DNA of 53,281 nucleotides from an uncultured Chthonomonas sp. (GTDB lineage Bacteria > Armatimonadota > Chthonomonadetes > Chthonomonadales > Chthonomonadaceae). A model generated the notes under the pieces. It was not told the DNA's origin. It saw only the letters and a program-made list of their open reading frames with translations, and did no database searches. The DNA is taken from contig CAIONQ010000045.1 of NCBI GenBank assembly GCA_903859705.1, positions 1 to 53,281 on the forward strand, read 5' to 3'. Positions 6,155 to 53,281 of this stretch are shown here, in pieces. Position numbers and translations under genes: made by a program. How positions within the stretch are numbered: position 1 is the first letter of the stretch; every line of letters starts with the position of its first letter.

Positions 6155-6312
6155 GTGGCATTAATTTTATGAACACGCCGCCCATTTAGTACGTCCCCTT
6201 AGCGCAACTCACAGGATACAGGTATGCGTTCCGGTAGCTGCAATATTGGCGTTTGTTTCTGCAAAAAGGCATCTTCCTTGTGTCTGGCAGTGCAATAGAA
6301 AGGCCGGGAATA

Positions 6313-9300: not shown

Positions 9301-12300
9301 TATCGACGGATTGTTTCACATCGGCTATTGCTTCAATGGGAAACTTCGCAGGAAGTTGGCAAAGGAGCAAAAAAACGAGAAAGGGCCCTGCAGCGTCTTG
9401 CGGCCCCGCCGCTGTGCCTTGGCATCATTTGCGCTTTATTTGTTATTATTCATCCAGCCGCCCGTGTTGCTGCCCTGCCGTTTGTTGGGATATGGGCACT
9501 GGCACCCATGATGATTATGTGGATGAATGCTCCTGTACGGAAGTGGCCAGCGCAGTCTCTGTCAGTAGAAGATCAGGTTATGCTTCGCCTGGTAGCCCGG
9601 CAAACCTGGCGGTATTTTGATGACTTTGTTGGGCCAGAAACCAACTGGCTCCCCCCCGATAACTACCAGGCAGATCTCCGAGTAGAAGTGGCCCAGCGTA
9701 CATCTCCTACAAATATCGGTCTTGGTTTGATGGCAAATCTCGCTGCAGCTGATTTTGGTTACATCACAGTGGATAGCTTGATTGATCGCACCGAAAACAC
9801 ATTGAAGACAATGGAGACAATGGAGACCTTTGAGGGGCACATTTTAAACTGGTACGACATCAGAGATCTCAAGCCTCTACTGCCTCGTTACGTTTCCATG
9901 GTAGATAGCGGAAATCTGCTGGGCGCACTTTGGACGGTTGCACAGGGATTGCAAGAGCTTGTGTCTGCCCCGGTTCTCTCGCCCGCTGCCCTTGCGGGAT
10001 TGCAGGATACGTTGCGTAGCATGCGGCCATTGCAGCAACATGCCTGGCAGGATCCAGATCAGATTGAGTTACGCCTGTTGGAGCTCGAGAACCTGGCCGG
10101 GCATGCTTCGCAGGAATTGAAGGAAATAGTTCATCGGGTTCGCCTATCGGCAACCCCTGCGTCCTATCTGTTAGAAGCGGTTCATCGAACAGAAACAAAT
10201 ACAAACAATGCCGTTTACTGGGCTGAGAAGGTATCGGATCACGTTTCTCAGTGGAGTCAGATTGTAGACCGATACCTACGATGGGTAATTGTGCTTGAGG
10301 CTCCGCCTGAAGGCGGCTTGCTTGCCTGCGGGCCGGATGCCCATACCTGGCGGCGGCAGGCACTGGCGTCTTCGCCATCTTTGCGTGCCCTCGCCACTGG
10401 CAATGTGCCAGGGTTGCGAGAACTGGTTGGATTACAGCGTCGCAGCAGCGAAATGCACCTTAGTCCGGCCGTTTGTAAATGGTTGGATGACCTTGCAGCA
10501 TCGGCATCCGATGCGCAACGCCTGGCTTCTGAACGACTGGCAGAATGCAACGCAATTATCAATCGGCTGCACCACCTGGCCGATGGTATGAATATGCGAT
10601 TTCTATATGACGCAACGCAGCGCCTCTTTACCACCGGTTACAACGTGAGCGACCGTCGGATGGATGAAAGCTGCTACAACCTGCTGGCTAGTGAGGCGCG
10701 TCTCGGCAGTTTTATAGCCATTGCAAACGGCCAGATACCGGTTGAGCACTGGTGGGCACTGGGCCGCCCGTATGGTGAAGCCTATGGGCAGAAGATATTG
10801 CTTTCATGGGGCGGTACCATGTTTGAGTACCTCATGCCATTGCTGCTAACCAGAAGCTATGAGAATTCACTGCTTGATCAGGCATGCCGTGCCGTGGTTT
10901 CTTGCCAGATATCTTATGGCAAAATGCGAAGCATTCCGTGGGGCATATCTGAGTCTTCCTACAGCGCAGTAGATGCCCAGCGAACTTACCAGTATCGGGC
11001 TTTTGGTGTTCCGGGCCTCGGTTTGAAGCGCGGACTGGAAGATGATCTGGTAGTTTCGCCCTACTCCTCGGCGCTGGCGCTGGCCCTGGAACCGGCAGCT
11101 TCGGCAAAGAACCTTCGAAAACTTGCCAGCTTGCCCCATCTCGAAATGCATGATGGCTATGGCTTTTATGAATCGATAGATTACACGCGTCAGCAAAATC
11201 AAATGGGCAGGCGCGGCATTGTAGTAAGGTCTTTCATGGCACATCACCAGGGAATGATTCTCTCTGCCATCGACAATGCCATTAACGAAAACACTATGCA
11301 GGAGCGCTTTCATCGGGATCCACGGGTGTGTGCTACAGAATCTCTACTATTTGAACGTATCCCCTCGGCTCCGGCGATAACCGGGAATAATCCACAGCAA
11401 GAGGTGGTACCGCGTGTTCCCGCCACCGTAGCGCCATCGCCTTCTGGCCGCGTAGATACGCCAAATACCGCTGCGCCACAAACCAACCTGCTATCAAATG
11501 GCAACTTTAGTGTTATGACTACCAATGCGGGTGGGGGCGGTTGCCAATGGCAGAATATCGAGATCTCACGGTGGCGTTCCGATGTTACCTGTGATTCCTA
11601 CGGCGAATATCTCTATTTGAAGAATATTGAAACGCGGGCAGTATGGTCTGCCACCCATCAACCCGTGCTTGCAGACTTACAGCAGTATCTTGTAACGTTT
11701 TCTTCAGATAAAACGGAGTTTTGCAGGCGCGATGGCGACATTGAAACCAGAACAGAAATTGTTGTGTCTCCGGAAGATAACGTAGAAGTACGGCGTGTAA
11801 CACTTGTAAACCGATCCAGGCAACATAGAACGATCGAGCTCACCAGCTATGTGGAGTTGGCACTCTCTGATCACCGTGCAGATAGGGCGCATCCTGCATT
11901 TAACAAACTGTTTGTGGAAACCGAGATGCTGGCACACCAGAGTGCGCTCCTCGCGCATAGAAGGCCGAGGTCGCCATCAGATCCGCCTATCTGGGCAGTA
12001 CATGTATCCGCGGCAGATGAATGCGATATCCTGCCCCAGTTCGAAACAGATAGGGCACAGTTTATTGGGCGAGGGCGTACAGCAAAAGATCCCGCAGCCA
12101 TGCATGGTGATTTGACGGGCACAGCAGGGTTTGTACTGGATCCGATTTTCAGCTTGAGAAGGCGTGTAACCGTGGAATCTGGGCAACGAATCCAGATTGC
12201 ATTTGTAACGGGTGCGGCCGCTTCACGTGAAGAGGCGGTTGCCATTGCGGATAAGTACTCCACACTTCAATCTTCCGATAGAGCCATTGAAATGGCCTGG

Positions 12301-15300
12301 GCCCACGCCCAGTTGGAACTACGGCATCTCGGCATACACCAGCAGGATACTCAGGCCTTTCAGCAGCTTGCCGCACACATCTTTTATCCATCGGCTCTCT
12401 TGCGGCCATCACCAGAACGCCTGATCCGCAACACGCTAGGTCAATCATCGCTATGGGCACAGGGCATCTCTGGAGATCTGCCAATAGTTACGGTAACTAT
12501 TGGCGATACACGAGACATAGTGCTTGTACGCCAGGTGCTGCTGGCGCGTTCTTACCTGCTGGCTCGCGGGCTCAAAATGGATCTAATACTCCTGAATGAG
12601 GAGCCAGATACTTATGGGCAACCACTGCTCACACAGCTTCGCAGGCTGATGGAAGCCTTTGTGCCATCGGCCACTGCCGAACAGCCGGGTGGTGTGTTCT
12701 TACGGTCTGCCGATCAGGTGCAAGAGCCAGAGCGTACGCTTCTGCTTACGGCATCACGCATTGTGTTTGTGGCAGCGCGGGGTGGTTTACAAGAGCAACT
12801 GAGTGCTCCTGCAATTGGGGCCGCTACCGCGCCAGCGCTGTTAGGGTGGCGAAACGCTGCCGAGGCAGGAGCACCGTTGCCGGTACGGGATCTGACAATC
12901 GATAACGGTGTTGGAGGATTTACATGTGATGGTAACGAGTATGTTATTCACCTGGATGCCGGATGTGTTACCCCACTTCCATGGGTTAACGTTATGTCTA
13001 ACAAGGCTTTCGGTACCATTGTTTCGGAGTCTGGTTCAGGATTTACCTGGAGTCTAAATAGCCAGACGAACCGGCTTACACCGTGGTCGAATGACCCGAT
13101 TTCGGATACTCCTGGAGATGTCATTTACATCCGAGACGAGGAATCAACCCGCGTGTGGACGCCAACCGCGCTACCAATCCGAGAGCAGGAACCTTACCGA
13201 ACAACGCATGGCAAAGGCTACACTCATGCTGAACACAATAGTCATGGAATCAATCAGGTTCTCACCACTTTTGTGCCAGTTGATGCGGAAGGGGGATCGC
13301 CGGTAAGGTTACAGCGGCTGAGCCTTACTAACCTCTCAAACCGGCGGAGAAGGCTCAGTATTACGCTTTATTGTGAGTGGGTACTTGGTACTGAGCGTGA
13401 AGATACTCAGCTGCATGTTAGTACGCAGTGGGATGCCGTTTCGCAATGTTTGTTTGCCCGTAATCCATTTCATCCCGATGATGGTGGCAGGGTTACCTTT
13501 GTTACCTGCAGTGCCGCTGTTTTGTGCTACACCGGCGATAGAACCGAGTTTCTGGGCCGTAACGGCTCGCTAAGCGCACCTGCAGCTATGTCTCGCACAA
13601 GGCTCTCCGGCAGAGTGGGTGCTGGCCTGGATCCATGTGGAGCCTACCGTGTTCAGGTTTTGCTGGAGCCAAGAGAGAAGGCTGATGTAGTATTTGTGCT
13701 CGGACAAGCGGCCAATGTGGCAGAAGCTCGTGAGCTTGCTGCACACTTCCGAACGCCACGTTCCTTTGAGACTGCGTTGAAAACCACCCGAGATTGGTGG
13801 AGCAATGTTCTCAATACTGTTCAAGTACAAACGCCTTCTGTGTCTGTAGACTTTATGATGAACGGCTGGCTGCTATATCAGGCGCTAAGCTGCAGAATCT
13901 GGGGACGTTCTGCGTTCTACCAGTCTGGTGGTGCGTACGGCTTTCGCGATCAGTTGCAGGACTCTATGGCGCTGGTTTATGCTGCCCCTGATATCGCTCG
14001 TGAGCAGATCCTCCGCGCTGCTGCCCGGCAGTTTCCTGAAGGCGATGTTCAGCACTGGTGGCATCCCGGCAGTGGCGCTGGGGTTCGCACACGCATCTCG
14101 GATGATATGCTCTGGCTACCATTCGTTACTGCTCACTATGTAAGAGTAACTGGTGATACCGGAATTCTGGATACACAGGTGCCGTTTATACAGGGCAAGC
14201 TCATTGCAGAAAATGGGATGGAAGCATTTTATAGCCCTACTATTACGAGCGATACGGCAACACTGCTTGAGCACTGCAGGCGATCTATTGAAAAAGGATC
14301 GACTTCAGGTATTCACGGATTGCCCCTGATCGGGAGTGGTGACTGGAATGACGGCCTGAACCTGGTAGGAAAAGATGGCAAAGGCGAGAGTGTTTGGCTG
14401 GCATGGTTCCTGGTATGTGTGTTAAACGATTTTGCGAACACCGTGCTCCAACATGGCGCCTCGGCTAACCCTACGGCGCTGATTGAAGCCACAAAATACC
14501 GGGAGCAGGCCGAAGGTATTGCCAAAGCGGTGGATGACACCGCATGGGATGGTGCCTGGTATCGCCGTGGCTACTTTGACAATGGAGACTCGCTTGGTTC
14601 TGTTCAAAATGAGGAAGCACAGATTGATTCCATTGCTCAATCGTGGAGCGCCATCTCAGCAGCAGGGGATCCCGTGCGAGCAATTGGCTCAATGCAGGCG
14701 GTAATGCACAGGCTTGTGCTTGAGCAAGAGAAAATGGTTCTGCTTTTTGCGCCGCCTTTTGCATCATCTGCTGTAGAACCAGGCTATATAAAGGGGTATC
14801 CACCGGGAGTGCGTGAAAATGGCGGCCAGTACACCCATGGGTCTCTCTGGGTGCCAATGGCGCTGGCCCGGCTTGGGGATGGCAATAACTGTAACGCAGT
14901 GTTGGAAATGATGAACCCGATTTCACATACCAGAACACCGGCAGACATCAAGTGCTATAAGGCAGAACCCTACGTAGTTGCTGCAGATGTTTATGCGCTG
15001 CCGGGAAGGGTAGGCCGAGCAGGATGGAGCTGGTATACCGGCGCGGCTGCCTGGATGTACAGAATATGGCTGGAAGAAGTTCTGGGGTTTCAGGTGCGTG
15101 GAAACCAGCTGAGTTTTCACCCATGCTTCAAAAACACATGGGTATCGGTTGAAATGACGTACCGTTATCACGGCTCCCAGTTCAACATCCAGATACGCAA
15201 TCCTGCGGCGGTAAGTTCAGGAGTAAAAGAGGTAAGCCTGGATGGTGTTACATGTACCGATGGAGTGATTGCATTGCTAGACGATGGAGCCACCCATACG

Positions 15301-15330
15301 ATTGTTGTACTGATGGGGCAAACTGCCTGA
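6313..15330 (+). CDS. ndvB: Cyclic beta-1,2-glucan synthase, NdvB/ChvB-like (GT84-GH94)
   Basis: About 3005 residues, slightly longer than the usual 2800-2900. The protein makes beta-1,2-glucan from UDP-glucose at the inner membrane. N-terminal region 1-500 is soluble; membrane segments lie near 505-570, 910-960 and 1035-1070. Between them is the GT84 glycosyltransferase, with DADTQLPRD at about 720 and the KRQHRWIRGDWQ motif at about 864. A glycoamylase-like domain follows (about 1420-1660; GTMFEYLMP, MAHHQGM). Two beta-supersandwich modules start near 1728 and 2201. The GH94 phosphorylase-type catalytic barrel has GSGDWNDGLNLVG with Asp-Asn-Asp near 2677, which controls chain length. I chose the ATG at 6313 because AAAGG lies nine bases before it; a TTG at 6253 and a GTG at 6280 are in frame but less likely. 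It is flanked by stress and two-component genes, suggesting osmotic or envelope adaptation. Confidence 0.88.
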   Translation: MAERGIVLGFYQDRAVALEVLTLLRSNPRFQSAVIVSDENGKTTVTCNWSLMRGKLSPSLILKYSRWLVRNEALVIIQALPVAMRQAVDTLHLGLLAPTATFVLLPSIGATDLPYDEFSQAAPATLEALQAEAVRLAEVHVQAGTHRGGARPLNDRLSDSEAILNQVQESLSTAVRTGQPVSMSAEWLLDNAYILQGHIDEFRSNLPARFYDELPRIGEGPQIGLPRVYTIATRLISIAHIRLDREWLDAFLRTYQGVSELTMAELWALPLMLRLRMIECVRHLAIQVVRRQRESELADFYANRLLTAARQDRDRLLPFVTELAKEQPDPSTYLADQLSSYLYDEERALASLTGWLEYRLGAPLVTSTQQEHLNQTTELVALANAIAALRHLARYDWREAFEGLCGVEAILRRDPSGVYPNMDFNTRDQYRHVVEETARRSGHSEKHIAELALAMATSATTDLTRHVGYYLADAGKAAIEAQTGCRPPLTELARRYVRKNSEVVYPSAVALISILVLWSLIDATASAKSGAVVLMSFTMLAMLPASEIALQIVNHLVIRQIPPRALPRMRFDAGIPEEFTTLVIVPMMLLTPDSICDEVAQLEIRYLANTDPNLLFGLLSDYSDAPQRDMPEDIERLDVAIQAIQKLSARYGPGRFYLFHRDRQWSKCEERWIGWERKRGKLEHLNRFLVGNPDPEQPRFLRSGDPAILSKIRFVITLDADTQLPRDTARHLIETLAHPLNQPQLSPDGREVERGYTIVQPGVSTSLPSATSTRFSRIFTDATGLDPYTHVSSDVYQDLMAESSYQGKGIYDLRAFNSVLSDRFPESHLLSHDLIEGGHVRVGLASDIELLDQFPGDYLAYTKRQHRWIRGDWQIADWLFPTVPGPRDQRVHNALSFFNRWKIADNLRRSLLPAASIALLLFGWRFTAAPVLVSVFVGSVMLLPPLVLFGASISTKSDSEKNVLRQLGISLQRAAICAVLLPEQAYTALDAIIRVMYRRIVSHRLLLQWETSQEVGKGAKKRERALQRLAAPPLCLGIICALFVIIHPAARVAALPFVGIWALAPMMIMWMNAPVRKWPAQSLSVEDQVMLRLVARQTWRYFDDFVGPETNWLPPDNYQADLRVEVAQRTSPTNIGLGLMANLAAADFGYITVDSLIDRTENTLKTMETMETFEGHILNWYDIRDLKPLLPRYVSMVDSGNLLGALWTVAQGLQELVSAPVLSPAALAGLQDTLRSMRPLQQHAWQDPDQIELRLLELENLAGHASQELKEIVHRVRLSATPASYLLEAVHRTETNTNNAVYWAEKVSDHVSQWSQIVDRYLRWVIVLEAPPEGGLLACGPDAHTWRRQALASSPSLRALATGNVPGLRELVGLQRRSSEMHLSPAVCKWLDDLAASASDAQRLASERLAECNAIINRLHHLADGMNMRFLYDATQRLFTTGYNVSDRRMDESCYNLLASEARLGSFIAIANGQIPVEHWWALGRPYGEAYGQKILLSWGGTMFEYLMPLLLTRSYENSLLDQACRAVVSCQISYGKMRSIPWGISESSYSAVDAQRTYQYRAFGVPGLGLKRGLEDDLVVSPYSSALALALEPAASAKNLRKLASLPHLEMHDGYGFYESIDYTRQQNQMGRRGIVVRSFMAHHQGMILSAIDNAINENTMQERFHRDPRVCATESLLFERIPSAPAITGNNPQQEVVPRVPATVAPSPSGRVDTPNTAAPQTNLLSNGNFSVMTTNAGGGGCQWQNIEISRWRSDVTCDSYGEYLYLKNIETRAVWSATHQPVLADLQQYLVTFSSDKTEFCRRDGDIETRTEIVVSPEDNVEVRRVTLVNRSRQHRTIELTSYVELALSDHRADRAHPAFNKLFVETEMLAHQSALLAHRRPRSPSDPPIWAVHVSAADECDILPQFETDRAQFIGRGRTAKDPAAMHGDLTGTAGFVLDPIFSLRRRVTVESGQRIQIAFVTGAAASREEAVAIADKYSTLQSSDRAIEMAWAHAQLELRHLGIHQQDTQAFQQLAAHIFYPSALLRPSPERLIRNTLGQSSLWAQGISGDLPIVTVTIGDTRDIVLVRQVLLARSYLLARGLKMDLILLNEEPDTYGQPLLTQLRRLMEAFVPSATAEQPGGVFLRSADQVQEPERTLLLTASRIVFVAARGGLQEQLSAPAIGAATAPALLGWRNAAEAGAPLPVRDLTIDNGVGGFTCDGNEYVIHLDAGCVTPLPWVNVMSNKAFGTIVSESGSGFTWSLNSQTNRLTPWSNDPISDTPGDVIYIRDEESTRVWTPTALPIREQEPYRTTHGKGYTHAEHNSHGINQVLTTFVPVDAEGGSPVRLQRLSLTNLSNRRRRLSITLYCEWVLGTEREDTQLHVSTQWDAVSQCLFARNPFHPDDGGRVTFVTCSAAVLCYTGDRTEFLGRNGSLSAPAAMSRTRLSGRVGAGLDPCGAYRVQVLLEPREKADVVFVLGQAANVAEARELAAHFRTPRSFETALKTTRDWWSNVLNTVQVQTPSVSVDFMMNGWLLYQALSCRIWGRSAFYQSGGAYGFRDQLQDSMALVYAAPDIAREQILRAAARQFPEGDVQHWWHPGSGAGVRTRISDDMLWLPFVTAHYVRVTGDTGILDTQVPFIQGKLIAENGMEAFYSPTITSDTATLLEHCRRSIEKGSTSGIHGLPLIGSGDWNDGLNLVGKDGKGESVWLAWFLVCVLNDFANTVLQHGASANPTALIEATKYREQAEGIAKAVDDTAWDGAWYRRGYFDNGDSLGSVQNEEAQIDSIAQSWSAISAAGDPVRAIGSMQAVMHRLVLEQEKMVLLFAPPFASSAVEPGYIKGYPPGVRENGGQYTHGSLWVPMALARLGDGNNCNAVLEMMNPISHTRTPADIKCYKAEPYVVAADVYALPGRVGRAGWSWYTGAAAWMYRIWLEEVLGFQVRGNQLSFHPCFKNTWVSVEMTYRYHGSQFNIQIRNPAAVSSGVKEVSLDGVTCTDGVIALLDDGATHTIVVLMGQTA

Positions 15331-43685: not shown

Positions 43686-44756
43686 ATGCAGGCAGTTACG
43701 GAAGAACAGGTGCTGAACGCGCTACGCGTAGTTCAAGATCCTGATTTACATAGAGATATTGTTGCGCTTGGGTTTGTAAAGGACATTCGCATTTGCGAAG
43801 GTTCCGTTGCATTCAAGGTGGAGCTAACCACGCCCGCTTGCCCTGTGAAAGACCTCCTGAAGAAGCAGGCGGAGCAAGAGGTTGCCAAAATCCCCGGCGT
43901 AACCACCGTGTCCGTTGAGATGACTGCGCAGGTTCGCTCGCGGGAAAAAGCCGCCGAAGAGCTGCTGCCCGGGGTTAAAAATGTAATCGCCGTAGCCAGC
44001 GGCAAGGGTGGTGTGGGCAAAAGCACCGTTGCCGCAAACCTGGCAATAGCGCTGCAGCGCACCGGCGCAAGAGTGGGCCTGCTGGATGCCGATATATATG
44101 GCCCGACCATGCCGCTGATGATGGGAAGCACCCACCGACCGTTGATGACGGAAACAGCAACCGGGGCCAAAATTGTGCCGGTAAATGCCCACGGCGTTTT
44201 GATGATGTCTCTCGGCCTGATTCTGGATCCGGATAAAGCGGTTGTGTGGCGCGGACCGATGATCGCCAGCGCCGTTCGGCAGATGCTGGGAGATGTAATC
44301 TGGGGAAATCTGGATTACCTTGTTGTGGATCTGCCCCCGGGCACCGGCGATGCCTCGCTTAGCCTGGCGCAACTCGTTCCCATCTCCGGGGTTGTAATCG
44401 TTACCACGCCACAGGCGGTTGCGGCAGAGATAGCAAACAAAAGCGTAATCATGTTCCGCACTGTTGGGCAGGGGCAGGGCCGGGAAATTCCCATACTGGG
44501 TGTCATTGAGAATATGTCTGGCTCAGTATTCGGCACGGGTGGCGGTACCATAGCGGCCGAGAAGTTTGGCGTACCGCTGTTGGGCACCATCCCCCTGGAA
44601 AATGGCGTGTGCGCAGGGGGAGATTCGGGCGTGCCTATTGTCCTCAGTGGCCCAGATTCAGAGGCAGCTCTGTCCCTCAACCGCATTGCCGGTGCGCTGG
44701 CAGCCCGCCTTAGCGTGCTGCAGCACGAAGGCGCTGCAGATAAGCCAGAGGCTTAA
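43686..44756 (+). CDS. mrp: Mrp/ApbC iron-sulfur cluster carrier ATPase lacking the CxxC motif
   Basis: 356 residues. A MIP18/DUF59 domain (1-85: VLNALRVVQDPDLHRDIVALGFVKDI, with TTPACPVK) precedes the P-loop ATPase: deviant Walker A ASGKGGVGKST (104-114), Walker-type DADIYGPTMPLM and DLPPGTGDASL. In most Mrp/ApbC proteins the region after ENMS holds a CPHC-type cluster-binding pair; here it reads E275-NMSGSVFGTGGG, with no cysteines and a shortened loop. A similar cysteine-free form is known in some actinobacterial Mrp proteins. The Fe-S donor role is therefore uncertain. The 3' end overlaps the convergent SDR gene by four bases. Confidence 0.9.
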   Translation: MQAVTEEQVLNALRVVQDPDLHRDIVALGFVKDIRICEGSVAFKVELTTPACPVKDLLKKQAEQEVAKIPGVTTVSVEMTAQVRSREKAAEELLPGVKNVIAVASGKGGVGKSTVAANLAIALQRTGARVGLLDADIYGPTMPLMMGSTHRPLMTETATGAKIVPVNAHGVLMMSLGLILDPDKAVVWRGPMIASAVRQMLGDVIWGNLDYLVVDLPPGTGDASLSLAQLVPISGVVIVTTPQAVAAEIANKSVIMFRTVGQGQGREIPILGVIENMSGSVFGTGGGTIAAEKFGVPLLGTIPLENGVCAGGDSGVPIVLSGPDSEAALSLNRIAGALAARLSVLQHEGAADKPEA

Positions 44757-45499
44757 CTAGCGCTCCGTTCGGGATTAAACGCATCATCCACCGGGTTGTA
44801 TCCCAGTCGAGAGCGCGTATCGTTAAGATCTAACCAGCTATGCTGATTATTTGAGACCCCGTGTACGATCATGTAATCGATATCCGGGGTCTCTATGCAT
44901 CTATCCAGCAAATGACATAAATCGCGCAGAGTAACAAAGATAGAGCGCACATCCACCGGGGTATCGCCCACAATGTGGCTTAAATCGCCAACGGCTCCAA
45001 TGCGAATACACAACGTAGAGAGCCCCTCTCTTAACCCGAAATAGGCTCCCAGAGATTCTCCAAATGCCTTGGATGCACCGTACACATTGCCTGGCATAGG
45101 GGCGTCGTAGGTTCTTACCTGCCTGTCTGCCGGGTAACCAAACACCGCATTCACGCTGCTGGCAAAAACCACGCGTCGGCATCCCGCATCCTTTGCTGCC
45201 CTGAAAATATTGTACGTAGCCTTGAAATTCGGCCCAAGCAGATCGTCGTAAAAATCTGCCCAGGTTCGCGGGTCGGCCGCCATATGCACCACGGTATCAA
45301 TCCCCTCACACAGCGCTCTGGTCGTTTCTAAATCCGCCAAATCTGCCACATGGCACTCATGCTCGCCCGCATCCGCGGTGGGCCTTAAGTCTACAAGTCG
45401 AAACGAATACGCATCGGCAGCATGTATGCGGTAAGCGGTGCCAATTCTGCCTGCCGATCCGGTTAGCAGAATTCGCCTGCGGGAATCGGATTGTGTCAT
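44753..45499 (-). CDS. NAD-dependent epimerase/dehydratase, uronate-dehydrogenase-like
   Basis: 248 residues, short as in the uronate dehydrogenase branch of extended SDRs. The cofactor motif is TGSAGRIG (13-20), D37 in RLVDLRP favours NAD, and the catalytic residues are S114/S115 in VFASSVNAV, Y140 and K144 in YGASK. The C-terminus (GVSNNQHSWLDLNDTRSRLGYNPVDDAF) matches that branch. Uronate dehydrogenase oxidises galacturonate or glucuronate to the aldaric lactone. GGGAGA before the ATG supports the start. A divergent gap of 181 bp separates it from the polysaccharide-export operon. Confidence 0.82.
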   Translation of the reverse strand: MTQSDSRRRILLTGSAGRIGTAYRIHAADAYSFRLVDLRPTADAGEHECHVADLADLETTRALCEGIDTVVHMAADPRTWADFYDDLLGPNFKATYNIFRAAKDAGCRRVVFASSVNAVFGYPADRQVRTYDAPMPGNVYGASKAFGESLGAYFGLREGLSTLCIRIGAVGDLSHIVGDTPVDVRSIFVTLRDLCHLLDRCIETPDIDYMIVHGVSNNQHSWLDLNDTRSRLGYNPVDDAFNPERSAS

Positions 45500-45680
45500 G
45501 CGGTAAGTCTCCCATACATCAATTTCAGCTGTCGCCAGCCTCTGCAGAGTATACTCCGCCGATTAAGCTGCTGTTAAGATTCACACTGTGGGTTCGGAAG
45601 TATGAGTAGCATCGGGTATATTAGTTAAGCAGTTATCATTTTCAAGACGAAACAGGGACACGCTTTCTCCTCTACCAGAT

Positions 45681-46532
45681 ATGGAACAATCCTCAAGTAA
45701 CACCACTTCCGCACCACTTCTTACGATACGCCCGAGTTCTGGCTGGAGCGCAGTCAACGTTCGTGAACTCATTCAATACCGCGATCTGCTATTCGTATTT
45801 GCATTACGCGATATAAAGCTTCGCTACCGGCAGACGCTGCTTGGCCCCATCTGGATTTTGCTTCAGCCACTGATGGGTGCCGGTGTCCTTTCCTTTATCT
45901 TTGGCGGTATCGCCCACCTCAAGGCGCCAGGTACGCTTCCGTACTTCGTGTACTGTTTTACTGGCCAGCTCGGTTTCTCAATTTTCTCTGGAATAGTATC
46001 CAGGGTGAGTACGAGCCTTACTGGCAATGCGCACCTTGTGGCCAAGGTCTACTTCCCTCGCCTCCTGTTGCCTTTCTCAACAGTATTTGCAGTGATGGTG
46101 GACTTCTGTGCGGCCGCAACCATTTTGCCTGTGCTGATGGTTATGTACCATGTGGTGCCGGGCTTGGGGATCTTACTGCTTCCGTTCTGGATCCTGCTGT
46201 TTGTATTGCTCGCTCTGGGAGTAGGGCTGCTTGCAGCAGCGCTTATGGTATCGTATCGAGACGTAAGCGCACTGATCACGGTAATCATGGGCTTTCTGCC
46301 CTATGTGAGTGCGGTTGGCTTTGATCCATCCACGCTCAACTACCGAATGAGGATGCTGGTGCTGGTAAATCCTGTGGCACAGATTCTTGAGGGCTTTCGC
46401 TGGTCGCTGTTGAATACACAGATGCCCACTCCCAAGCACATCCTCTTTACCACTCTGGTTTCGGCAGGCTCCTTTGTGCTGGGAACCCTGCTGTTCCGTA
46501 AAATGGAGAAGAAGTTCGCAGATGTCATCTAA
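45681..46532 (+). CDS. wzm: ABC-2 polysaccharide export permease (Wzm-like)
   Basis: 283 residues with six membrane segments. The N-terminal amphipathic stretch LIQYRDLLFVFALRDIKLRYRQTLLGPIWILLQPLMG is diagnostic of the Wzm/TagG group. It exports complete, lipid-linked polysaccharide chains across the inner membrane. Its last codons overlap the start of the ATPase gene (ATG at 46522), as is usual for this pair. Confidence 0.93.
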   Translation: MEQSSSNTTSAPLLTIRPSSGWSAVNVRELIQYRDLLFVFALRDIKLRYRQTLLGPIWILLQPLMGAGVLSFIFGGIAHLKAPGTLPYFVYCFTGQLGFSIFSGIVSRVSTSLTGNAHLVAKVYFPRLLLPFSTVFAVMVDFCAAATILPVLMVMYHVVPGLGILLLPFWILLFVLLALGVGLLAAALMVSYRDVSALITVIMGFLPYVSAVGFDPSTLNYRMRMLVLVNPVAQILEGFRWSLLNTQMPTPKHILFTTLVSAGSFVLGTLLFRKMEKKFADVI

Positions 46533-47769
46533 GGACCTTGCGATCTCGGTTCGCGGATTATCCAAGAGCTACACTATCGTTCATCAGGGCGGTTCAGTCG
46601 ATGACCCGAGCGCGGCTTCTGCTGCAGACTCTTCGTCGGCGCTATCTCAGATCCGCGGATCCATGTTTCAGCGTGGATCCCGGGAAACTTTCTGGGCACT
46701 CAGGGATGTGTCTTTCGATGTGAAGAAAGGCGATGTTGTTGGCATTATTGGCCGCAACGGAGCCGGCAAGAGCACTCTGCTAAAAACGCTCTCCCGCATC
46801 ACGGAGCCTACCGAAGGATCCATCGAACTCTACGGCCGTGTAGGTAGCCTGCTGGAAGTTGGTACCGGTTTTCACCCGGAGCTTACGGGCCGTGAAAACA
46901 TATTCCTTAACGGGGCAATTCTGGGGATGCGGCGTGCGGAAATTCTGGCTAAATTCGATGAGATCGTAGAGTTCTCAGGGGTGGCCAAGTTTCTGGATAC
47001 ACCGGTAAAACGCTACTCCAGTGGAATGTACGTTCGCCTCGCGTTTGCAGTGGCCGCACATCTTAATCCAGAGATACTTATTGTGGATGAGGTGCTCGCG
47101 GTAGGTGATGCAGAGTTCCAGAAAAAATGCCTCGGTAAAATGCAGGATGTTGCCGCACACGGTCGAACCGTACTGTTTGTAAGTCATAACCTTACGGCTG
47201 TTACGGCACTGTGTAACCGCGGCATTTTTATGCGGGGTGGCACAATACTCTGCGATGGCGATGTTAACCTGGCGATCAATGCATACTCAGATTCGTTCCG
47301 ATCCGAAGCAGGTACGCGCACAGAGAGCCAGAACAAACCCTACGGCTTCCGCAGTATTCGCCTCATAAACCTGGATGATCCTAACGAGATGGAGATCCTA
47401 ACCTGCCAGACACCTGCCCGATACGCGCTTGAATTTAAGTGTGTTATTCCAGAGAGCAGGTCCGTAAACGTTGGCTTCACTCTGATTAACGATGCAGAAG
47501 TGTGTGTTGCCTCGTGCAGTGCGCTGGATTCTGTTCAGCGTTTGCCCGCAGGCCCGGTTACAATGCGCATTGAACTTCCAATACCAAGCATGCCTTCCGG
47601 TAACTTCCGCGTAGAAGGGGCAGTATGGGATTCCTCGCGCGAGTACGATAAGTCGGACGGTCTCCTGTTCTTCTCGGTAACGAACACCATGTCGATTCTG
47701 AACCTTAACGGTTCAAAACCACGCGGTGCCACACTCATCCTTTCTCCTTGGCAGATCGAAACCTCCTGA
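46522..47769 (+). CDS. wzt: ABC polysaccharide export ATPase with C-terminal binding domain (Wzt-like)
   Basis: 415 residues from the ATG at 46522, which overlaps the wzm stop. Walker A GRNGAGKST, the family's signature YSSGMYVRLAFAVAAHLNPEILIVDEVLAVGD, and an H loop VLFVSHNL are intact. An insert of about 30 residues precedes Walker A. The C-terminal 150 residues form a beta-sandwich (YGFRSIRLINLDDPNE; NFRVEGAVWDSSREYDKSDGLLFFSV) as in Wzt proteins of E. coli O8/O9a, where it recognises the chain terminus. This suggests a capped polysaccharide, which would need a capping enzyme that is not obvious here. Confidence 0.92.
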   Translation: MSSKDLAISVRGLSKSYTIVHQGGSVDDPSAASAADSSSALSQIRGSMFQRGSRETFWALRDVSFDVKKGDVVGIIGRNGAGKSTLLKTLSRITEPTEGSIELYGRVGSLLEVGTGFHPELTGRENIFLNGAILGMRRAEILAKFDEIVEFSGVAKFLDTPVKRYSSGMYVRLAFAVAAHLNPEILIVDEVLAVGDAEFQKKCLGKMQDVAAHGRTVLFVSHNLTAVTALCNRGIFMRGGTILCDGDVNLAINAYSDSFRSEAGTRTESQNKPYGFRSIRLINLDDPNEMEILTCQTPARYALEFKCVIPESRSVNVGFTLINDAEVCVASCSALDSVQRLPAGPVTMRIELPIPSMPSGNFRVEGAVWDSSREYDKSDGLLFFSVTNTMSILNLNGSKPRGATLILSPWQIETS

Positions 47770-47850
47770 CGGCAACTTATCTGCCTGTATCTCCTCAAAA
47801 CGAACCTGCTGTCGGCAGCTTGAATTTACCTCGAGAGGGTTGGTAAAGAT

Positions 47851-49248
47851 TTGAAATATCTCATTGTAGGTGCGGGCCCAACGGGAATCGGAGCGGCCTT
47901 AGCGCTGAATGAACTCGGTTGCAGCGACTATCTTATGATAGATGGTCAGGATATTGCAGGGGGGCTGTCGTCGTCCTTTGTTGATGATGCCGGGTTTACA
48001 TGGGACCTCGGTGGGCACGTGCAGTTCTCTCACTACGAGATTTTTGATGAGTATATGGATAAGGCTCTCGGCAAAGAGGGCTGGCTTAACCACCAGCGCG
48101 AAAGCTGGGTCTGGATGCGCGATACATTTGTGCCATATCCATTTCAGTTCAATCTGCATCGCCTGCCGCCTAAAGAGCGTTGGGATTGCGTAAAGGGACT
48201 CTTCGAAGCCAGCAAAGCAGAGCCCACCAAACCCTCACATTTTAAAGAGTGGGCTATTGCCACTTTTGGCGGGGGCGTTACTGAGCACTTTTTCTACCCG
48301 TATAATTTCAAAGTGTGGGCACATCCTCTAGAGCTTATGAGCTATCAATGGGTTGGTGAGCGAGTGGCCGTACCGGATTTAGCGAAAGTAATGGAGGGCG
48401 TGTGCCTCGGGGAAGATCAAGTTTCCTGGGGGCCAAACAGCACGTTCCGCTTCCCGCTCCGTGGTGGAACAGGCTCCATCTGGCGTGCACTCGCAGGCTT
48501 TATTCCTGAAGAGAATAAGAAGCTCGGGGTACGAGTAGTATCTGTTGATCCGGCCGGGCACACGGTAACGCTGGATAATGGCGAAGTGCTTGCCTACGAG
48601 AAGCTAATTTCTACCGTGCCAGTAGATCAGTTTACGGAACTGGCCAACTTGCCACAGCTCTCGGCAGAAAGTAGCCAACTGCTCTACTCCAGTACGCACG
48701 TTGTTGGTATTGGCCTGGAAGGGCAGCCTGCAGAGCCACTTGAAACCAAGTGTTGGATGTATTTCCCGGAAGAAAACTGCCCGTTCTACCGGGTTACGGT
48801 GTTCAGCAACTACAGCCCCAATAACACGCTGGCCCCTGGCGAAACCTGGAGCCTTATGGCGGAAGTGGCCCAGAGCCCATACAAGCCAGTGGATCAGGCC
48901 ACCGTGGTAGAAGATGTCGTTCAGGGAATGATCAATGCAAAGCTCATTTCGCCAGATGATAAAATCCTGAGCAAGTGGTACTGCTTTCTGGATCATGGAT
49001 ATCCAACGCCAAGCGTAAATCGAGATAGCCATATTAATGCTGTGCTACCAGAGCTAGAGAAGTTTGATATCTACTCGCGCGGCCGTTTTGGTGCCTGGAA
49101 GTATGAAGTAAGCAATCAGGATCACTCGTTTATGCAAGGCTGGGAATGCGCGGTTCGCCTACTAACGGGTGCTGGTGCCGAGGCAGAGCCTACGTTGCAT
49201 ACACCCAGCGCAGTTAACAAACAATACAATCGTCGTAATCCGTCCTGA
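47851..49248 (+). CDS. glf: UDP-galactopyranose mutase, eukaryotic type
   Basis: 465 residues from a TTG at 47851 directly before the dinucleotide motif GAGPTGIG (7-14); GAGAGGG lies upstream. It resembles the fungal and protozoan enzymes more than the bacterial Glf of about 370 residues: the histidine loop is DLGGHVQFSHYEIFDEYMDKAL (H56, H61), followed by VPYPFQFNL, FFYPYNFKVWAHPLE, WGPNSTFRFPLRGGTGSIW and VSNQDHSFMQGWE. The enzyme converts UDP-galactopyranose to UDP-galactofuranose with reduced FAD. Beside Wzm/Wzt and two glycosyltransferases it should feed a galactofuranose-containing surface polysaccharide. Confidence 0.85.
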   Translation: MKYLIVGAGPTGIGAALALNELGCSDYLMIDGQDIAGGLSSSFVDDAGFTWDLGGHVQFSHYEIFDEYMDKALGKEGWLNHQRESWVWMRDTFVPYPFQFNLHRLPPKERWDCVKGLFEASKAEPTKPSHFKEWAIATFGGGVTEHFFYPYNFKVWAHPLELMSYQWVGERVAVPDLAKVMEGVCLGEDQVSWGPNSTFRFPLRGGTGSIWRALAGFIPEENKKLGVRVVSVDPAGHTVTLDNGEVLAYEKLISTVPVDQFTELANLPQLSAESSQLLYSSTHVVGIGLEGQPAEPLETKCWMYFPEENCPFYRVTVFSNYSPNNTLAPGETWSLMAEVAQSPYKPVDQATVVEDVVQGMINAKLISPDDKILSKWYCFLDHGYPTPSVNRDSHINAVLPELEKFDIYSRGRFGAWKYEVSNQDHSFMQGWECAVRLLTGAGAEAEPTLHTPSAVNKQYNRRNPS

Positions 49249-49317
49249 CACAGTTTTCTGAAAAGGCTCAGTACCTGGTACGCCTATCTGGCACCCATAC
49301 CTGAGTGGGAGTGAGCA

Positions 49318-50595
49318 ATGTCCGACCTGCTTGTAAAGCACCCATTCCGAGATATCGCGAAGGGTGGAGGTCCAACAGGCTATCTCTATAATCTCCGCAC
49401 AGCGGCAGCAGAATTCGGCTTAGATACTGGCGTAACCTTCGATATCAACGAAGATATGAAGGCACCACCGCGCCCACCAGTACCACCGCCTGCCCCGTGG
49501 CCGCTATGGAAAAAAGTATATAACCTCCTTCGCAGAGGCTATGGAGCTGCCGCTACAACCGTCGGCAGCTCTATACCAAAACCACCGGATTATATCCCTG
49601 AAAATTTCGATGCCGAACTGGATGCGTTTGAAGACTGGAAGAACCACCACTATGGATGGATCACCGAGTCTTACGCACGCAAAATGTTTGATGCCGACCT
49701 GTTATTTGCGAATGATATCTGGTTGGCATCGGCCATAGCCAGGCTCTGCCCGGAGCTGAGTAAAGAAAAGCTTGTGCTCATTTCTCACTCTCCAACGTGG
49801 ACCATCATCGAAGCCACAGCGCGTATTTTGCCGGATTATCCCGACCCTCGCTATCTGAATATTAAGCGTGTCCGCAGTATTGTGGATGAAAATCTGGAGA
49901 CAATGGCCTCCATCAGGGCAGTGTTATGGCCCTGTGCCGAAGCAGTGCCAGAATATCCGGAGTGGGTTGAAGTGAATGCAAACGGCCGTGGTGCGAATGT
50001 ATTTGCCGAAACAGGAGTTCAAAAGCCCACAGGCACATTGAGCGGCGCAGATATGCGCACTCAGTGGCAGATAGAACCTAACCAGAGAGTGGTTCTGTTT
50101 ATCGGCCGCGCACATCCACATAAAGGCTTTCACCGCTTTCACTCCTGGGCTCAAGCCGCACGCAAACAGGGCGATACAGGCTACGTATTTGTGCACGCAG
50201 GCCAGCCACCAAACGATGTCGATAAGAACAGTCCGCTGAGGCATGTGGGGTACATAAAAGATAATGCTGCAGCATATGCTGCAGCCGATCTGGTTGTTAT
50301 TCCCAACCAGTTCTCTTATATGGATATTGGCCTGCTAGAGTCATTGAGCCTCGGGGCGAAGATCGCAATTTCCCCCACCGGTGGGCACAGGCTCTTCCCT
50401 GAGATATGCCCGGATATTCCTACAATTCCTGATACAAATGCCGATGATGAGTGGCAAACGCTCAAGCAATATATTCAAGAGTATGCAGCAACTACTACTC
50501 GGCAAGAAGCGTTCCAGAAGCTCTGGGAATCGCGTTTTTCCTTAGAGCCATTCTGTGCAAACCATGTTCGTGTGTGTCGGGAGCTAACAAAGTAG
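49318..50595 (+). CDS. Glycosyltransferase, GT4-like
   Basis: 425 residues. GGGAG precedes the ATG. The N-terminal half lacks the usual hydrophobic anchor and contains a proline-rich stretch (PPRPPVPPPAPW, about 57-68). The C-terminal half has the GT-B nucleotide-sugar domain: RVVLFIGRAHPHKGFHRFHSWAQ, VGYIKDNAAAYAAADLVVIPNQFSYMDIGLLESLSLGAKIAIS, with the E-x7-E-like ending. Cytoplasmic or peripheral membrane. Given glf and Wzm/Wzt next to it, it is likely to add galactose or galactofuranose to a lipid-linked polysaccharide. Confidence 0.82.
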   Translation: MSDLLVKHPFRDIAKGGGPTGYLYNLRTAAAEFGLDTGVTFDINEDMKAPPRPPVPPPAPWPLWKKVYNLLRRGYGAAATTVGSSIPKPPDYIPENFDAELDAFEDWKNHHYGWITESYARKMFDADLLFANDIWLASAIARLCPELSKEKLVLISHSPTWTIIEATARILPDYPDPRYLNIKRVRSIVDENLETMASIRAVLWPCAEAVPEYPEWVEVNANGRGANVFAETGVQKPTGTLSGADMRTQWQIEPNQRVVLFIGRAHPHKGFHRFHSWAQAARKQGDTGYVFVHAGQPPNDVDKNSPLRHVGYIKDNAAAYAAADLVVIPNQFSYMDIGLLESLSLGAKIAISPTGGHRLFPEICPDIPTIPDTNADDEWQTLKQYIQEYAATTTRQEAFQKLWESRFSLEPFCANHVRVCRELTK

Positions 50596-50641
50596 GCATC
50601 ACTACTTGATGATGCCCCGGCCCGGATTAGGAGTATCTTTC

Positions 50642-51862
50642 GTGCGCATCGCTTACCTGAGTTATCAGTTTCCGAAGTACGCAAACTATGGCGGCATCGG
50701 TACGTATGTTAAGCAGGTGGCATCGGGCATGGCCGCTCTTGGTGATGATGTTGAGGTGTTTTGCGGGCACGATACAGAAACCGGCAGCTCCGATGAGGGC
50801 GGATACCGCGTTAATTACACAAAGAGCGATAGAGAAGGTTTCTGCACTGCGGTAGTGTCTGTGTTTGCCGAAAGGCACCGCCTCAAACCCTTTGACATCA
50901 TTGAAGTAGCTGATTACAATGCCGAAGGCGTGCATCTGATCCCCGCTCACCCGGAACTGCCCGTAGTAATGCGCCTTCACACTCCCGAATATCTGGTGAA
51001 ACGGGTAGAAGATGCTATCCACCCCATGCTCCGCCGCATTCGCGCACACTTTGGCGCAATCAAGCGCGGCAAGCGAAGCGCACTGCTATACAACCGCAAT
51101 GCCGATCCCGAATACGCCCATTCCCTTCTGGCCGACAGATACATGGCACCATGCCGTGATATTCTGAACATTGTTGGTAAGGATTGGAAACTTGATCGCA
51201 GCCGGTGTGCCGTTGTTCCCAACCCATTTACGCCATCATCCGATCTGTTGAAGATACCTGTTGAGAACACTAGCAAAACCATAACCTTTATAGGCCGTGT
51301 AGAAGTACGAAAAGGTGTTCTGGATCTTGCCGGTGCCATTCCGGGCGTGCTGCAGAAGCATCCTGATTGGCAATTTCGCTTTGTGGGTGCCTACGGTGGG
51401 TCTCCTAAGCGCCGCACTACAATGGATATATTCATACGGGAGGCAGTTGGCGAACATTACGCCTCCAACCTTGTTTTCACCGGCGCGCAACCACATAGCG
51501 CAGTTACAGGCGAACTCGAAAGTGCAGGCATCTGCGTATTCCCTAGCCTCTGGGATAACTTTCCTGGAGTGTGCCTGGAAGCCATGGCCGCTGCCAGGCC
51601 CGTAATTGCTACAAACGCGGGTGGCATGCCAGAGATACTTGCTGAAGGCAAGGCAGGCGTACTGGTGCCGCCACAAAACCCGGCTAAGCTGGCAGCGGCC
51701 ATAAATGCCCTTATTGAATCCCCGGAGCAGCGAACAAAACTTTCCCTCGCTGCCCGCCAACGTATCACAACGGCCTATCCGGCACCGGTAGTAGCACCTC
51801 AAATTAGAGAGCAGTATGAGCTAACCATAAAGTACCGAAAAGCCGCTGGACCAAGAACATAA
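50642..51862 (+). CDS. Glycosyltransferase, GT4 family
   Basis: 406 residues from a GTG at 50642, which has AGGAG eight bases before it; two ATGs at 50606 and 50609 sit in front of that site and are unlikely. The GT-B architecture is complete: N-terminal YLSYQFPKYANYGGIGTYVKQVASGMAALG, and in the C-terminal half FIGRVEVRKGVLDLAGAIP, PHSAVTGELESAGICVFPSLWDNFPGVCLEAMAAARPVIATNAGGMPEIL, including the E-x7-E motif. It is the last gene of the glf/Wzm/Wzt cluster, 46 bp after the preceding transferase gene. Confidence 0.92.
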   Translation: MRIAYLSYQFPKYANYGGIGTYVKQVASGMAALGDDVEVFCGHDTETGSSDEGGYRVNYTKSDREGFCTAVVSVFAERHRLKPFDIIEVADYNAEGVHLIPAHPELPVVMRLHTPEYLVKRVEDAIHPMLRRIRAHFGAIKRGKRSALLYNRNADPEYAHSLLADRYMAPCRDILNIVGKDWKLDRSRCAVVPNPFTPSSDLLKIPVENTSKTITFIGRVEVRKGVLDLAGAIPGVLQKHPDWQFRFVGAYGGSPKRRTTMDIFIREAVGEHYASNLVFTGAQPHSAVTGELESAGICVFPSLWDNFPGVCLEAMAAARPVIATNAGGMPEILAEGKAGVLVPPQNPAKLAAAINALIESPEQRTKLSLAARQRITTAYPAPVVAPQIREQYELTIKYRKAAGPRT

Positions 51863-52051
51863 GTTTTACTGCGCACAATAGATTGTAAATATCTGCTTTT
51901 GACTTGATCGGCTGTTTGCCTGCCGGCTATTGTCACTTTTCATAATTACCAGTTTTGCCTTCCGCACCGTTTAAGATCCGCTCTACCAGGAAAGCCACCT
52001 ATGTCGCCAGGGTCCCATTGGTCCATGCATTGAGATTTTCCTCATGCAAGG

Positions 52052-52064
52052 GCCCTCGCATAAG
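52052..52064 (+). repeat. First copy of the GCCCTCGCATAAG element
   Basis: The 13-base core GCCCTCGCATAAG is repeated almost exactly at 52641 and 52697. Here the similarity ends soon after the core. Confidence 0.5.
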
Positions 52065-52155
52065 CCATATTCAACGGCCCCAGCAAACTGCAGTACAAGC
52101 GCCGACCTGGCGCTAAAACACTAGCCTGGCAGCCAGAACCACCCACGCTGTAACT

Positions 52156-52261
52156 GTGAACCTGCAAGGGGCGTATAACAGCTCCAGTTTCGCCAACCAC
52201 GCGGCGATCTGCCGCAAAGACTCAAAACCATCATTGCCTCGAGGAGGCGACGGGTAACTGT
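52156..52261 (-). repeat. Diverged about 100-nt repeat, copy 1
   Basis: Its last 39 bases (ending GGGTAACTGT) match copy 2 at 32 positions; the first part aligns with short gaps. On the minus strand both copies translate to the pattern SYPSxPRGxDGF...YAPxxFT, so this may be a decayed coding repeat or a structured element. Confidence 0.5.
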
Positions 52262-52369
52262 TTGTTTTTGCGGCGAAGCCGAAGCGTACTGGTGCCGTCG
52301 CAAGGCGCACTTGGTCCATCATGTTCAAATCGCAAAGTGCGCCAGCGAAAATCAGACCGTGTCGTCAAC

Positions 52370-52469
52370 GTGAATTTCAACGGTGCGTAGTAAACTCGAT
52401 AGCACCAATCGGCAACCCGCCGAAACAATGCAAAACCATCGAAGCCCCGAGGAATCGAGGGGTAACTGT
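52370..52469 (-). repeat. Diverged about 100-nt repeat, copy 2
   Basis: Second copy of the unit starting GTGAA and ending GGTAACTGT; the shared blocks are CAAAACCATC, CGAGGA and GGGTAACTGT. The central block can fold on itself in both copies. Confidence 0.5.
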
Positions 52470-52597
52470 GAGCTGCGTAACAACAGACGGAGGCTCGAGG
52501 ACCCGGTTTTGCGGCGCTTCTCAGGTCTAAATAAATACCGACAGCGCCGCATACACTGGGACGAGCCGGAGGCCCCTTTTTCAAATTTACGGGGGGA

Positions 52598-52648
52598 CTG
52601 GGGGGCGTAACCAGCGCCCCCAGCGGGAGCGCGAGGGCTGGCCCTCGC
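52598..52648 (+). repeat. Two GC-rich hairpins
   Basis: CTGGGGGGCG (52598-52607) pairs with CGCCCCCAG (52615-52623) with one bulge; GCGAGGGC (52631-52638) pairs with GCCCTCGC (52641-52648) across TG. Dispersed repeats often look like this, with the second stem overlapping the direct repeat that follows. Confidence 0.5.
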
Positions 52649-52671
52649 ATAAAGAAAATCAATGTTACAAA
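52641..52671 (+). repeat. Direct repeat, second copy of the GCCCTCGCATAA element
   Basis: 31 bases starting GCCCTCGCATAAAGAAAA. It matches the copy at 52697 over its whole length with one indel and a few changes; the spacing between starts is 56 bases. Confidence 0.55.
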
Positions 52672-52696
52672 GCAATCGGCAAACAGAAAACTATTA

Positions 52697-52727
52697 GCCC
52701 TCGCATAAAGAAATCAACACTTACAAA
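52697..52727 (+). repeat. Direct repeat, third copy of the GCCCTCGCATAA element
   Basis: 31 bases starting GCCCTCGCATAAAGAAAT and ending TTACAAA, 71 bp before the terminase stop. It is too short a series for a CRISPR and the spacer lengths differ. Confidence 0.55.
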
Positions 52728-52797
52728 TTACGGCACAAGCCGTAGAAAGAAAACCCCATTCGAGAGCCGTGGAGAAACCTCTCCACAACAAAAACCC

Positions 52798-53281
52798 TCA
52801 CCAACTTCGTGCCACCTTACTCAACTCCAGAGAAAACCTATCAATCTGCGGCACCAACGCCCGCCTCTCAGGCACCACAAACGAAGCGCCGTAAAAGGCC
52901 AGCGCCAGGGCGTCCACAAAATCTGCAGACCCGATGCCGCGCCGCTTCATATCCCGGGCACTCTCCACTACCACCTTGCCGCTTTCGGTATAAGAATACA
53001 CCGCCAGAGAAAGCTGAGCAATCAACTCCCCATGCTCCGGAATAGAGATCAGCTCATCCGGGGAATAGACCGCCAACCCACCCGCACCCTCCACAGCGGT
53101 GCCAACCACCGCCGCGCCTGTCACCACAGAATGCGTATTTTCAAACCGCTGGCGCAACAGCCAGAACAATTCCGACCGTAGATTGCGGAACCGCTCACGG
53201 CTTGTCTTACCATCTGGCCAGCGCAAATCCGTTGGCGCTTCTCCCATATTAACAGCCATCGGCGCAAAGCCCAGGTCCGTG
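52798..53281 (-). CDS. Phage terminase large subunit, C-terminal nuclease domain (partial)
   Basis: The frame is open to the right edge; about 161 residues are visible. They read as the end of an RNase-H-fold terminase nuclease: an FAPMAVNMGEA strand, then FRNLRSELFWLLRQRF, LIAQLSLAVYSYTESGKVVVESARDMKRRGIGSADFVDALALAFYG, the last with the acidic residue of the nuclease site (SADFVDALALAF). The ATPase half lies beyond the window. Terminases of this type package DNA in tailed phages or gene-transfer agents. No other phage gene is visible, so prophage, remnant or transfer agent cannot be told apart. Confidence 0.8.
   Translation of the reverse strand, partial: TDLGFAPMAVNMGEAPTDLRWPDGKTSRERFRNLRSELFWLLRQRFENTHSVVTGAAVVGTAVEGAGGLAVYSPDELISIPEHGELIAQLSLAVYSYTESGKVVVESARDMKRRGIGSADFVDALALAFYGASFVVPERRALVPQIDRFSLELSKVARSW

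Follow-up and report, generated by a model that had tools for sequence, protein, structure and literature searches.

A predicted UDP-galactopyranose mutase of the fungal and trypanosomatid class in a bacterial polysaccharide locus belongs to a family widespread among bacteria

UDP-galactopyranose mutases (UGMs) of the class called eukaryotic form a widespread bacterial enzyme family. A 53,281-nucleotide stretch of DNA from an uncultured Chthonomonas sp. (contig CAIONQ010000045.1; hereafter the window) encodes a protein of this class within a polysaccharide locus. We consider it, with a probability of roughly 0.8, to be a functional UGM of the type found in fungi and trypanosomatids, a copy from a bacterial branch that most likely reached this lineage, along with the polysaccharide locus around it, by transfer from another bacterium. 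The enzyme itself adds one more member to a known class; the point of note is how broadly bacterial that class is. In open-access papers we found no statement to that effect, though a specialist's BLAST search would reveal it, nor any description of bacterial members of the class or report that one had been assayed.

Results

The window protein belongs to the eukaryotic UGM class

The original prediction placed a eukaryotic-type UGM of 465 residues in this locus, and both the open reading frame (Table 1) and the class assignment are borne out. A GAGAGG stretch lies 5' of its TTG start. In a phmmer search of all PDB sequences the sole strong matches are the UGMs of Aspergillus fumigatus (AfUGM) and Trypanosoma cruzi (TcUGM), at E ~1e-141; classical bacterial Glf sequences all fail to reach E 0.01. 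The reverse query, a distant relative's classical Glf, matches all bacterial Glf structures and AfUGM weakly. Members of the eukaryotic class share ~47–60% identity with each other and 14–18% with classical Glf (PMC3624792). The window UGM falls within that range, with 47.1% identity to AfUGM and 48.8% to TcUGM (the two share 49.2%); to classical Glf it is 14–20% identical by structural alignment. An AlphaFold2 model, built from 46 aligned bacterial sequences, reached a mean pLDDT of 92.5, and Foldseek and VIA-align returned T. cruzi UGM (Z 51.0) and A. fumigatus UGM (Z 49.9) as top matches, with classical Glf at Z 26–30, level with protoporphyrinogen oxidase (Z 30). By sequence, residues and predicted structure the window protein is thus of the eukaryotic-type class. 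Assignment to classical Glf was rejected: PF03275 (GLF) finds no match over cut-off in the protein, no Glf sequence in the PDB is matched at E 0.01, and the model is far nearer to eukaryotic UGM. Nesting inside classical Glf, the outcome that the original prediction had set against itself, was not observed.

Table 1. Features of the window around the UGM gene (coordinates in the window; dot, no strand).
Feature	Coordinates	Strand	Basis
Genus-variable stretch	44757..53281	.	synteny with congener G001 breaks off before it
Wzm-type ABC-2 permease, polysaccharide export	45681..46532	+	Pfam/NCBIfam
Wzt-type ATPase with C-terminal extension	46522..47769	+	Pfam/NCBIfam, translation inspected
Eukaryotic-class UGM, 465 aa	47851..49248	+	TTG start, no internal stops
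Histidine loop GGHVQF; G54-G55-H56 = AfUGM G61-G62-H63; Q58, usual bacterial residue	48010..48027	+	alignment; PMC3624792
180s flap equivalent VGERVAVPD; R171 = AfUGM R182	48352..48378	+	alignment
200s flap equivalent SWGPNST; N196 = AfUGM N207	48424..48444	+	alignment
Active-site segment YEVSNQDHS; Y418, N422, Q423 = AfUGM Y453, N457, Q458	49102..49128	+	alignment
GT4-like glycosyltransferase	49318..50595	+	Pfam
GT4 glycosyltransferase	50606..51862	+	Pfam/NCBIfam

The active site is that of a UGM

The AfUGM residues that contact substrate and FAD are listed in Table 3 of PMC3624792. We mapped them by aligning the window UGM with AfUGM and TcUGM, taking the letters from the PDB alignments. All 13 tested substrate contacts (Y104, F106, Q107, F158, N163, W167, R182, N207, Y317, R327, Y419, Y453 and N457) are kept, and the same set recurs in 89 close bacterial homologues, except F106 in five sequences. 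The tested FAD contacts are also kept except G456, which is Ser421, and this too recurs in the 89 homologues with hardly an exception. According to PMC3624792, the two-glycine histidine loop and the 200s flap are unique to eukaryotic UGMs and Gln107 is absent from bacterial ones. Here the loop occurs in the window UGM and in 89/89 close bacterial homologues, the uracil contact Gln107 corresponds to Q99, and the second mobile flap (203–209) with Asn207 is present by sequence. The three segments quoted in the original prediction as matching fungal and protozoan enzymes do occur in the protein, and they correspond to three AfUGM elements: its histidine loop, its substrate/uracil helix and its 200s flap. 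The match is inexact in the loop, which reads GGHVQFSHY and not GGHVIFSHY as in AfUGM and TcUGM.

That substitution is characteristic of the bacterial proteins. AfUGM position 65 is Gln in 88 of the 89 close homologues, and in 57/72 bacterial rows of a wider set that excludes Streptomyces and takes in more divergent sequences, some of which carry Ile, Met, Leu or Val. Ser421, in the YEVSNQDHS segment, stands where AfUGM and TcUGM have Gly, and Gly456 is common to the eukaryotic proteins, Streptomyces and several divergent bacteria. The window UGM has the commonest bacterial residues, GGHVQF and Ser421, in place of the GGHVIF and Gly of AfUGM and TcUGM. The eukaryotic state (Ile65, Gly456) may be the older one, with the window's state derived in one large bacterial group.

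UGM chemistry, with reduced flavin N5 as nucleophile, an N5-galactose iminium and ring contraction, is established for eukaryotic and classical bacterial enzymes (PMC3624792, PMC7662398). With every tested catalytic contact conserved, the window UGM is best read as catalysing this reaction too, and likely converts UDP-Galp to UDP-Galf with reduced FAD. NAD(P)H would probably reduce the flavin directly, since most residues of the eukaryotic NADPH site are kept: of I65, F66, H68, R91, S93, Y104 and Y317 (PMC7662398), six of the seven remain and I65 is Gln58. Asn57 of the published list was left out because it does not agree with AfUGM numbering, where residue 57 is Leu. For TcUGM, flavin reduction by NADPH is listed at 0.6 per s (PMC3624792, Table 6). 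NADPH is the likely direct reductant, judged from these residues and with less certainty because of Gln58; the I65-to-Q and G456-to-S changes lie beside the flavin, where they could affect how NADPH is used. Reduced N5 would then attack the anomeric carbon of UDP-Galp and expel UDP, the N5-sugar iminium would open and reclose as a five-membered ring, and UDP would re-add to give UDP-Galf.

Could the same chemistry act on another nucleotide sugar, such as UDP-GalNAc or UDP-arabinopyranose? A Campylobacter jejuni UDP-N-acetylgalactopyranose mutase in the PDB (4mo2) demonstrates that substrate preference can drift in the wider fold, but all tested galactopyranose, uracil and diphosphate contacts of AfUGM are kept in the window UGM, and we consider a different sugar improbable.

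Automated annotation would name the protein an FAD-dependent oxidoreductase of the protoporphyrinogen-oxidase/amine-oxidase superfamily, lacking mutase activity. Its Pfam matches are indeed limited to the generic Amino_oxidase and NAD-binding families, its nearest NCBIfam models form the uncharacterised PRK07208 group with scores far below cut-offs, and plasmid homologues (28–39% identity) are annotated as FAD-dependent oxidoreductases or NAD(P)-binding proteins. Against this stand Z 51 to eukaryotic UGM versus Z 30 to protoporphyrinogen oxidase, the complete UGM active site and the glycosyltransferase neighbourhoods described below, which leave this reading very little room.

The gene lies in an ABC-dependent polysaccharide locus

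The bacterial polysaccharide context that the original prediction described, with the UGM between Wzt and two GT4 genes, was recovered. The gene order is Wzm-Wzt-UGM-GT-GT: Wzm/Wzt-type ABC permease and ATPase subunits adjoin two GT4-type glycosyltransferases, as in an ABC-dependent polysaccharide locus. The listed wzt frame opens at a TTG at 46474; the ATG at 46522, which overlaps the wzm stop, is the likelier start. The C-terminal extension of Wzt is present and gives no Wzt_C (PF14524) match at Pfam E 1. A galE, source of UDP-Gal, lies elsewhere in the genome (450.6 bits); within the locus, no gene was assigned by name as a galactofuranosyltransferase. From the arrangement of the locus, the neighbouring glycosyltransferases would incorporate Galf into a glycan for export through Wzm-Wzt. 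In homologous loci, the 82 open reading frames adjoining UGM include 19 GT2, 7 GT4-type, 3 ABC ATPases and 2 Wzt_C proteins; these neighbourhoods are supporting rather than statistical evidence.

Gene order is common with the congener G001 from 36116 to ~44753–44756, the end of an Mrp-type ATPase gene. The UGM locus is not found after the Mrp gene in G001, which has no UGM homologue anywhere, and the locus block therefore occupies a genus-variable site. GC content is flat over the synteny break and thus offers no compositional hint that the block came in recently. Two other genes of the window may be recorded: an NAD-dependent sugar epimerase/dehydrogenase at 44753–45499 (minus strand), related to the glucose-6-phosphate dehydrogenase Azf (154 bits against a cut-off of 400), and one frame of 3025 aa at 6253–15330 (plus strand).

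The class is widespread and patchy in bacteria

The rarity implied by the original prediction does not hold. A scan of one genome per bacterial or archaeal species found at least 537 encoding stretches, the best 80 of which are all bacterial and span 12 named phyla: Omnitrophota, Acidobacteriota, Pseudomonadota, Bacteroidota, Verrucomicrobiota, Sumerlaeota, Lentisphaerota, Kiritimatiellota, Planctomycetota, Myxococcota, Bdellovibrionota and Chloroflexota. Named cultured strains among these 80 include representatives of Thiocapsa marina, Spirosoma, Fibrisoma, Siphonobacter and Aquirufa. Among the matches listed, the nearest relatives come from Omnitrophota, Acidobacteriota and Chromatiaceae (59–64% identity to the window UGM). 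Occurrence is patchy. In the host's own order 11 of 31 genomes carry a homologue; samples centred on other phyla gave 4/301 (Chloroflexota), 1/398 (Pseudomonadota), 12/246 (Planctomycetota), 6/193 (Myxococcota) and 1/296 (Bacteroidota), each count including the centre genome, which was picked for having the gene. PF03275 matched nothing in the window's genome or across its order (31 genomes sampled), and exceeded its cut-off in 0/12 other genomes or records with eukaryotic-class UGM genes; classical Glf and eukaryotic-class UGM seem to replace each other. One family member (L012/L016, contig C288 of G010) has its homologue split over two frames, by assembly error or as a pseudogene.

Mobile elements carry relatives as well. 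Plasmids of Chimaeribacter, Methylomagnum and Pantoea (L103, L104, L106) encode distant homologues (~30% identity) as the C-terminal part of ~870–1260-aa proteins annotated as FAD-dependent oxidoreductases; that of the Methylomagnum ishizawai plasmid adjoins galT and galK. Two Streptomyces plasmids (L102, L105) carry a diverged UGM-like branch (38% identity), its active site kept except Q458M and S461A, beside glycosyltransferase, NUDIX and phosphotransferase genes, with a BREX locus nearby in L102. Known phages gave weak matches (22–27% identity to the window UGM). Two phage contigs encode a UGM of the class: L144:9986-13026 and L145:100-3121 (IMG/VR 3300044646_001039 and 3300046011_008422), both with terminase large subunit and portal matches. 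Their UGMs are 75% identical to each other and 53–54% to the window UGM, and in both contigs a ParB-like protein and a glycosyltransferase-like protein follow. The latter matches the phrog_842 DNA-base glucosyltransferase in both, and in L144 also the TET-associated glycosyltransferase TAGT (PF20691, E 1e-6). Galactofuranosylation of phage DNA is possible.

The window gene is nested among bacteria

Did the window's lineage donate the eukaryotic gene, or receive its own from a eukaryote? The original prediction allowed both directions and proposed placement as sister to eukaryotes in a maximum-likelihood tree as the check. In favour, identity to AfUGM and TcUGM (47–49%) equals that between the two (49%). 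We built an IQ-TREE maximum-likelihood tree (76 rows, 467 columns, LG+C20 PMSF) in which the eukaryotes are two sequences, AfUGM (with a 12-residue gap) and TcUGM. The window UGM is sister to two Omnitrophota sequences (99/88) and next to an Acidobacteria sequence (100/96), within a group that also holds Chromatiaceae and Terriglobia; it joins no eukaryotic clade to the exclusion of bacteria. The best tree uniting it with AfUGM and TcUGM is 60 lnL worse (AU p 0.0198), and it has the eukaryotic residue at one of the 12 positions where AfUGM and TcUGM agree against bacteria. The AU test, the bacterial nesting, the residue signatures and the bacterial nearest relatives thus reject the window UGM as sister or closest donor of the eukaryotes, and make acquisition from a eukaryote very improbable.

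In the tree, the copies from other members of the host's family and order (L003–L009) group instead with Bacteroidota and Myxococcota. The window gene was therefore probably not inherited vertically, and transfer between bacteria accounts for it best.

Where, then, do the eukaryotic enzymes belong? AfUGM and TcUGM branch off near the weakly supported base of the tree. A single eukaryotic clade is allowed: constraining the tree to one gave a likelihood 6.9 lnL better (p 0.638), and the two pair in roughly half of the 200 bootstraps. When far homologues serve as outgroup, the eukaryotes fall among bacteria with weak support; with Streptomyces-type sequences as root, they stand beside bacteria (99/96), a support that drops to 46/92 on adding sequences from the planctomycete, Chloroflexota and Myxococcota samples. 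The Streptomyces and far-outgroup branches are long, making long-branch attraction a concern for these rootings. A TcUGM-query search of the Chloroflexota-, Pseudomonadota-, Planctomycetota-, Myxococcota- and Bacteroidota-centred samples found no supported bacterial sister of the eukaryotes. The odds appear to us evenly balanced that eukaryotic UGMs derive from the bacterial radiation, once or more, and not from the window's own branch.

Discussion

In reviews, the GGH loop, Gln107, the second flap and efficient reduction by NADPH count as features of eukaryotic UGMs on which eukaryote-selective inhibitors could be based (PMC3624792, PMC7662398). Bacteria from 12 or more named phyla also have the two-glycine loop, Gln107, the flap residues and most NADPH-site residues. 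These likely galactofuranose makers escape searches that rely on the GLF domain. Because bacteria with the class include the cultured environmental genera Spirosoma, Thiocapsa and Aquirufa, new enzymes are at hand to assay. The origin of the eukaryotic galactofuranose pathway becomes a testable question: if the eukaryotic UGMs do derive from the bacterial radiation, the fungal and trypanosomatid pathway began with a gene taken from bacteria.

Comparison with known systems

AfUGM (PDB 3UTH, 5HHF) resembles the window UGM in sequence (47% identity), fold (Z 49.9), substrate contacts, GGH loop, 180s and 200s flaps and the equivalent of Q107. In contrast to AfUGM, the window UGM lacks the AfUGM residues around 344–365, has Q58 for I65 and S421 for G456, and is encoded in a bacterial locus. 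TcUGM (4DSG/4DSH) is of similar length, with 49% identity, Z 51.0 and the same active-site residues, and like the window UGM it lacks the AfUGM 342–365 stretch; the window UGM differs from it in Q58, S421 and tree position. Classical Glf (PF03275; E. coli, K. pneumoniae, M. tuberculosis, D. radiodurans) would share the reaction predicted for the window UGM and shares the three-domain fold and polysaccharide context, but lacks the two-Gly histidine loop and the Gln uracil contact and is 14–20% identical.

Wzm/Wzt O-antigen and galactan export loci likewise place an ABC permease and ATPase beside glycosyltransferases and a UGM, whereas the window's UGM is of the other class and its transporter scores below the NCBIfam galactan-exporter cut-offs. 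The bacterial homologues (L020–L099, from Thiocapsa marina, Spirosoma, Aquirufa, Omnitrophota and others) stand on different branches; they are 50–64% identical to the window UGM, have the same active site and often stand beside glycosyltransferases.
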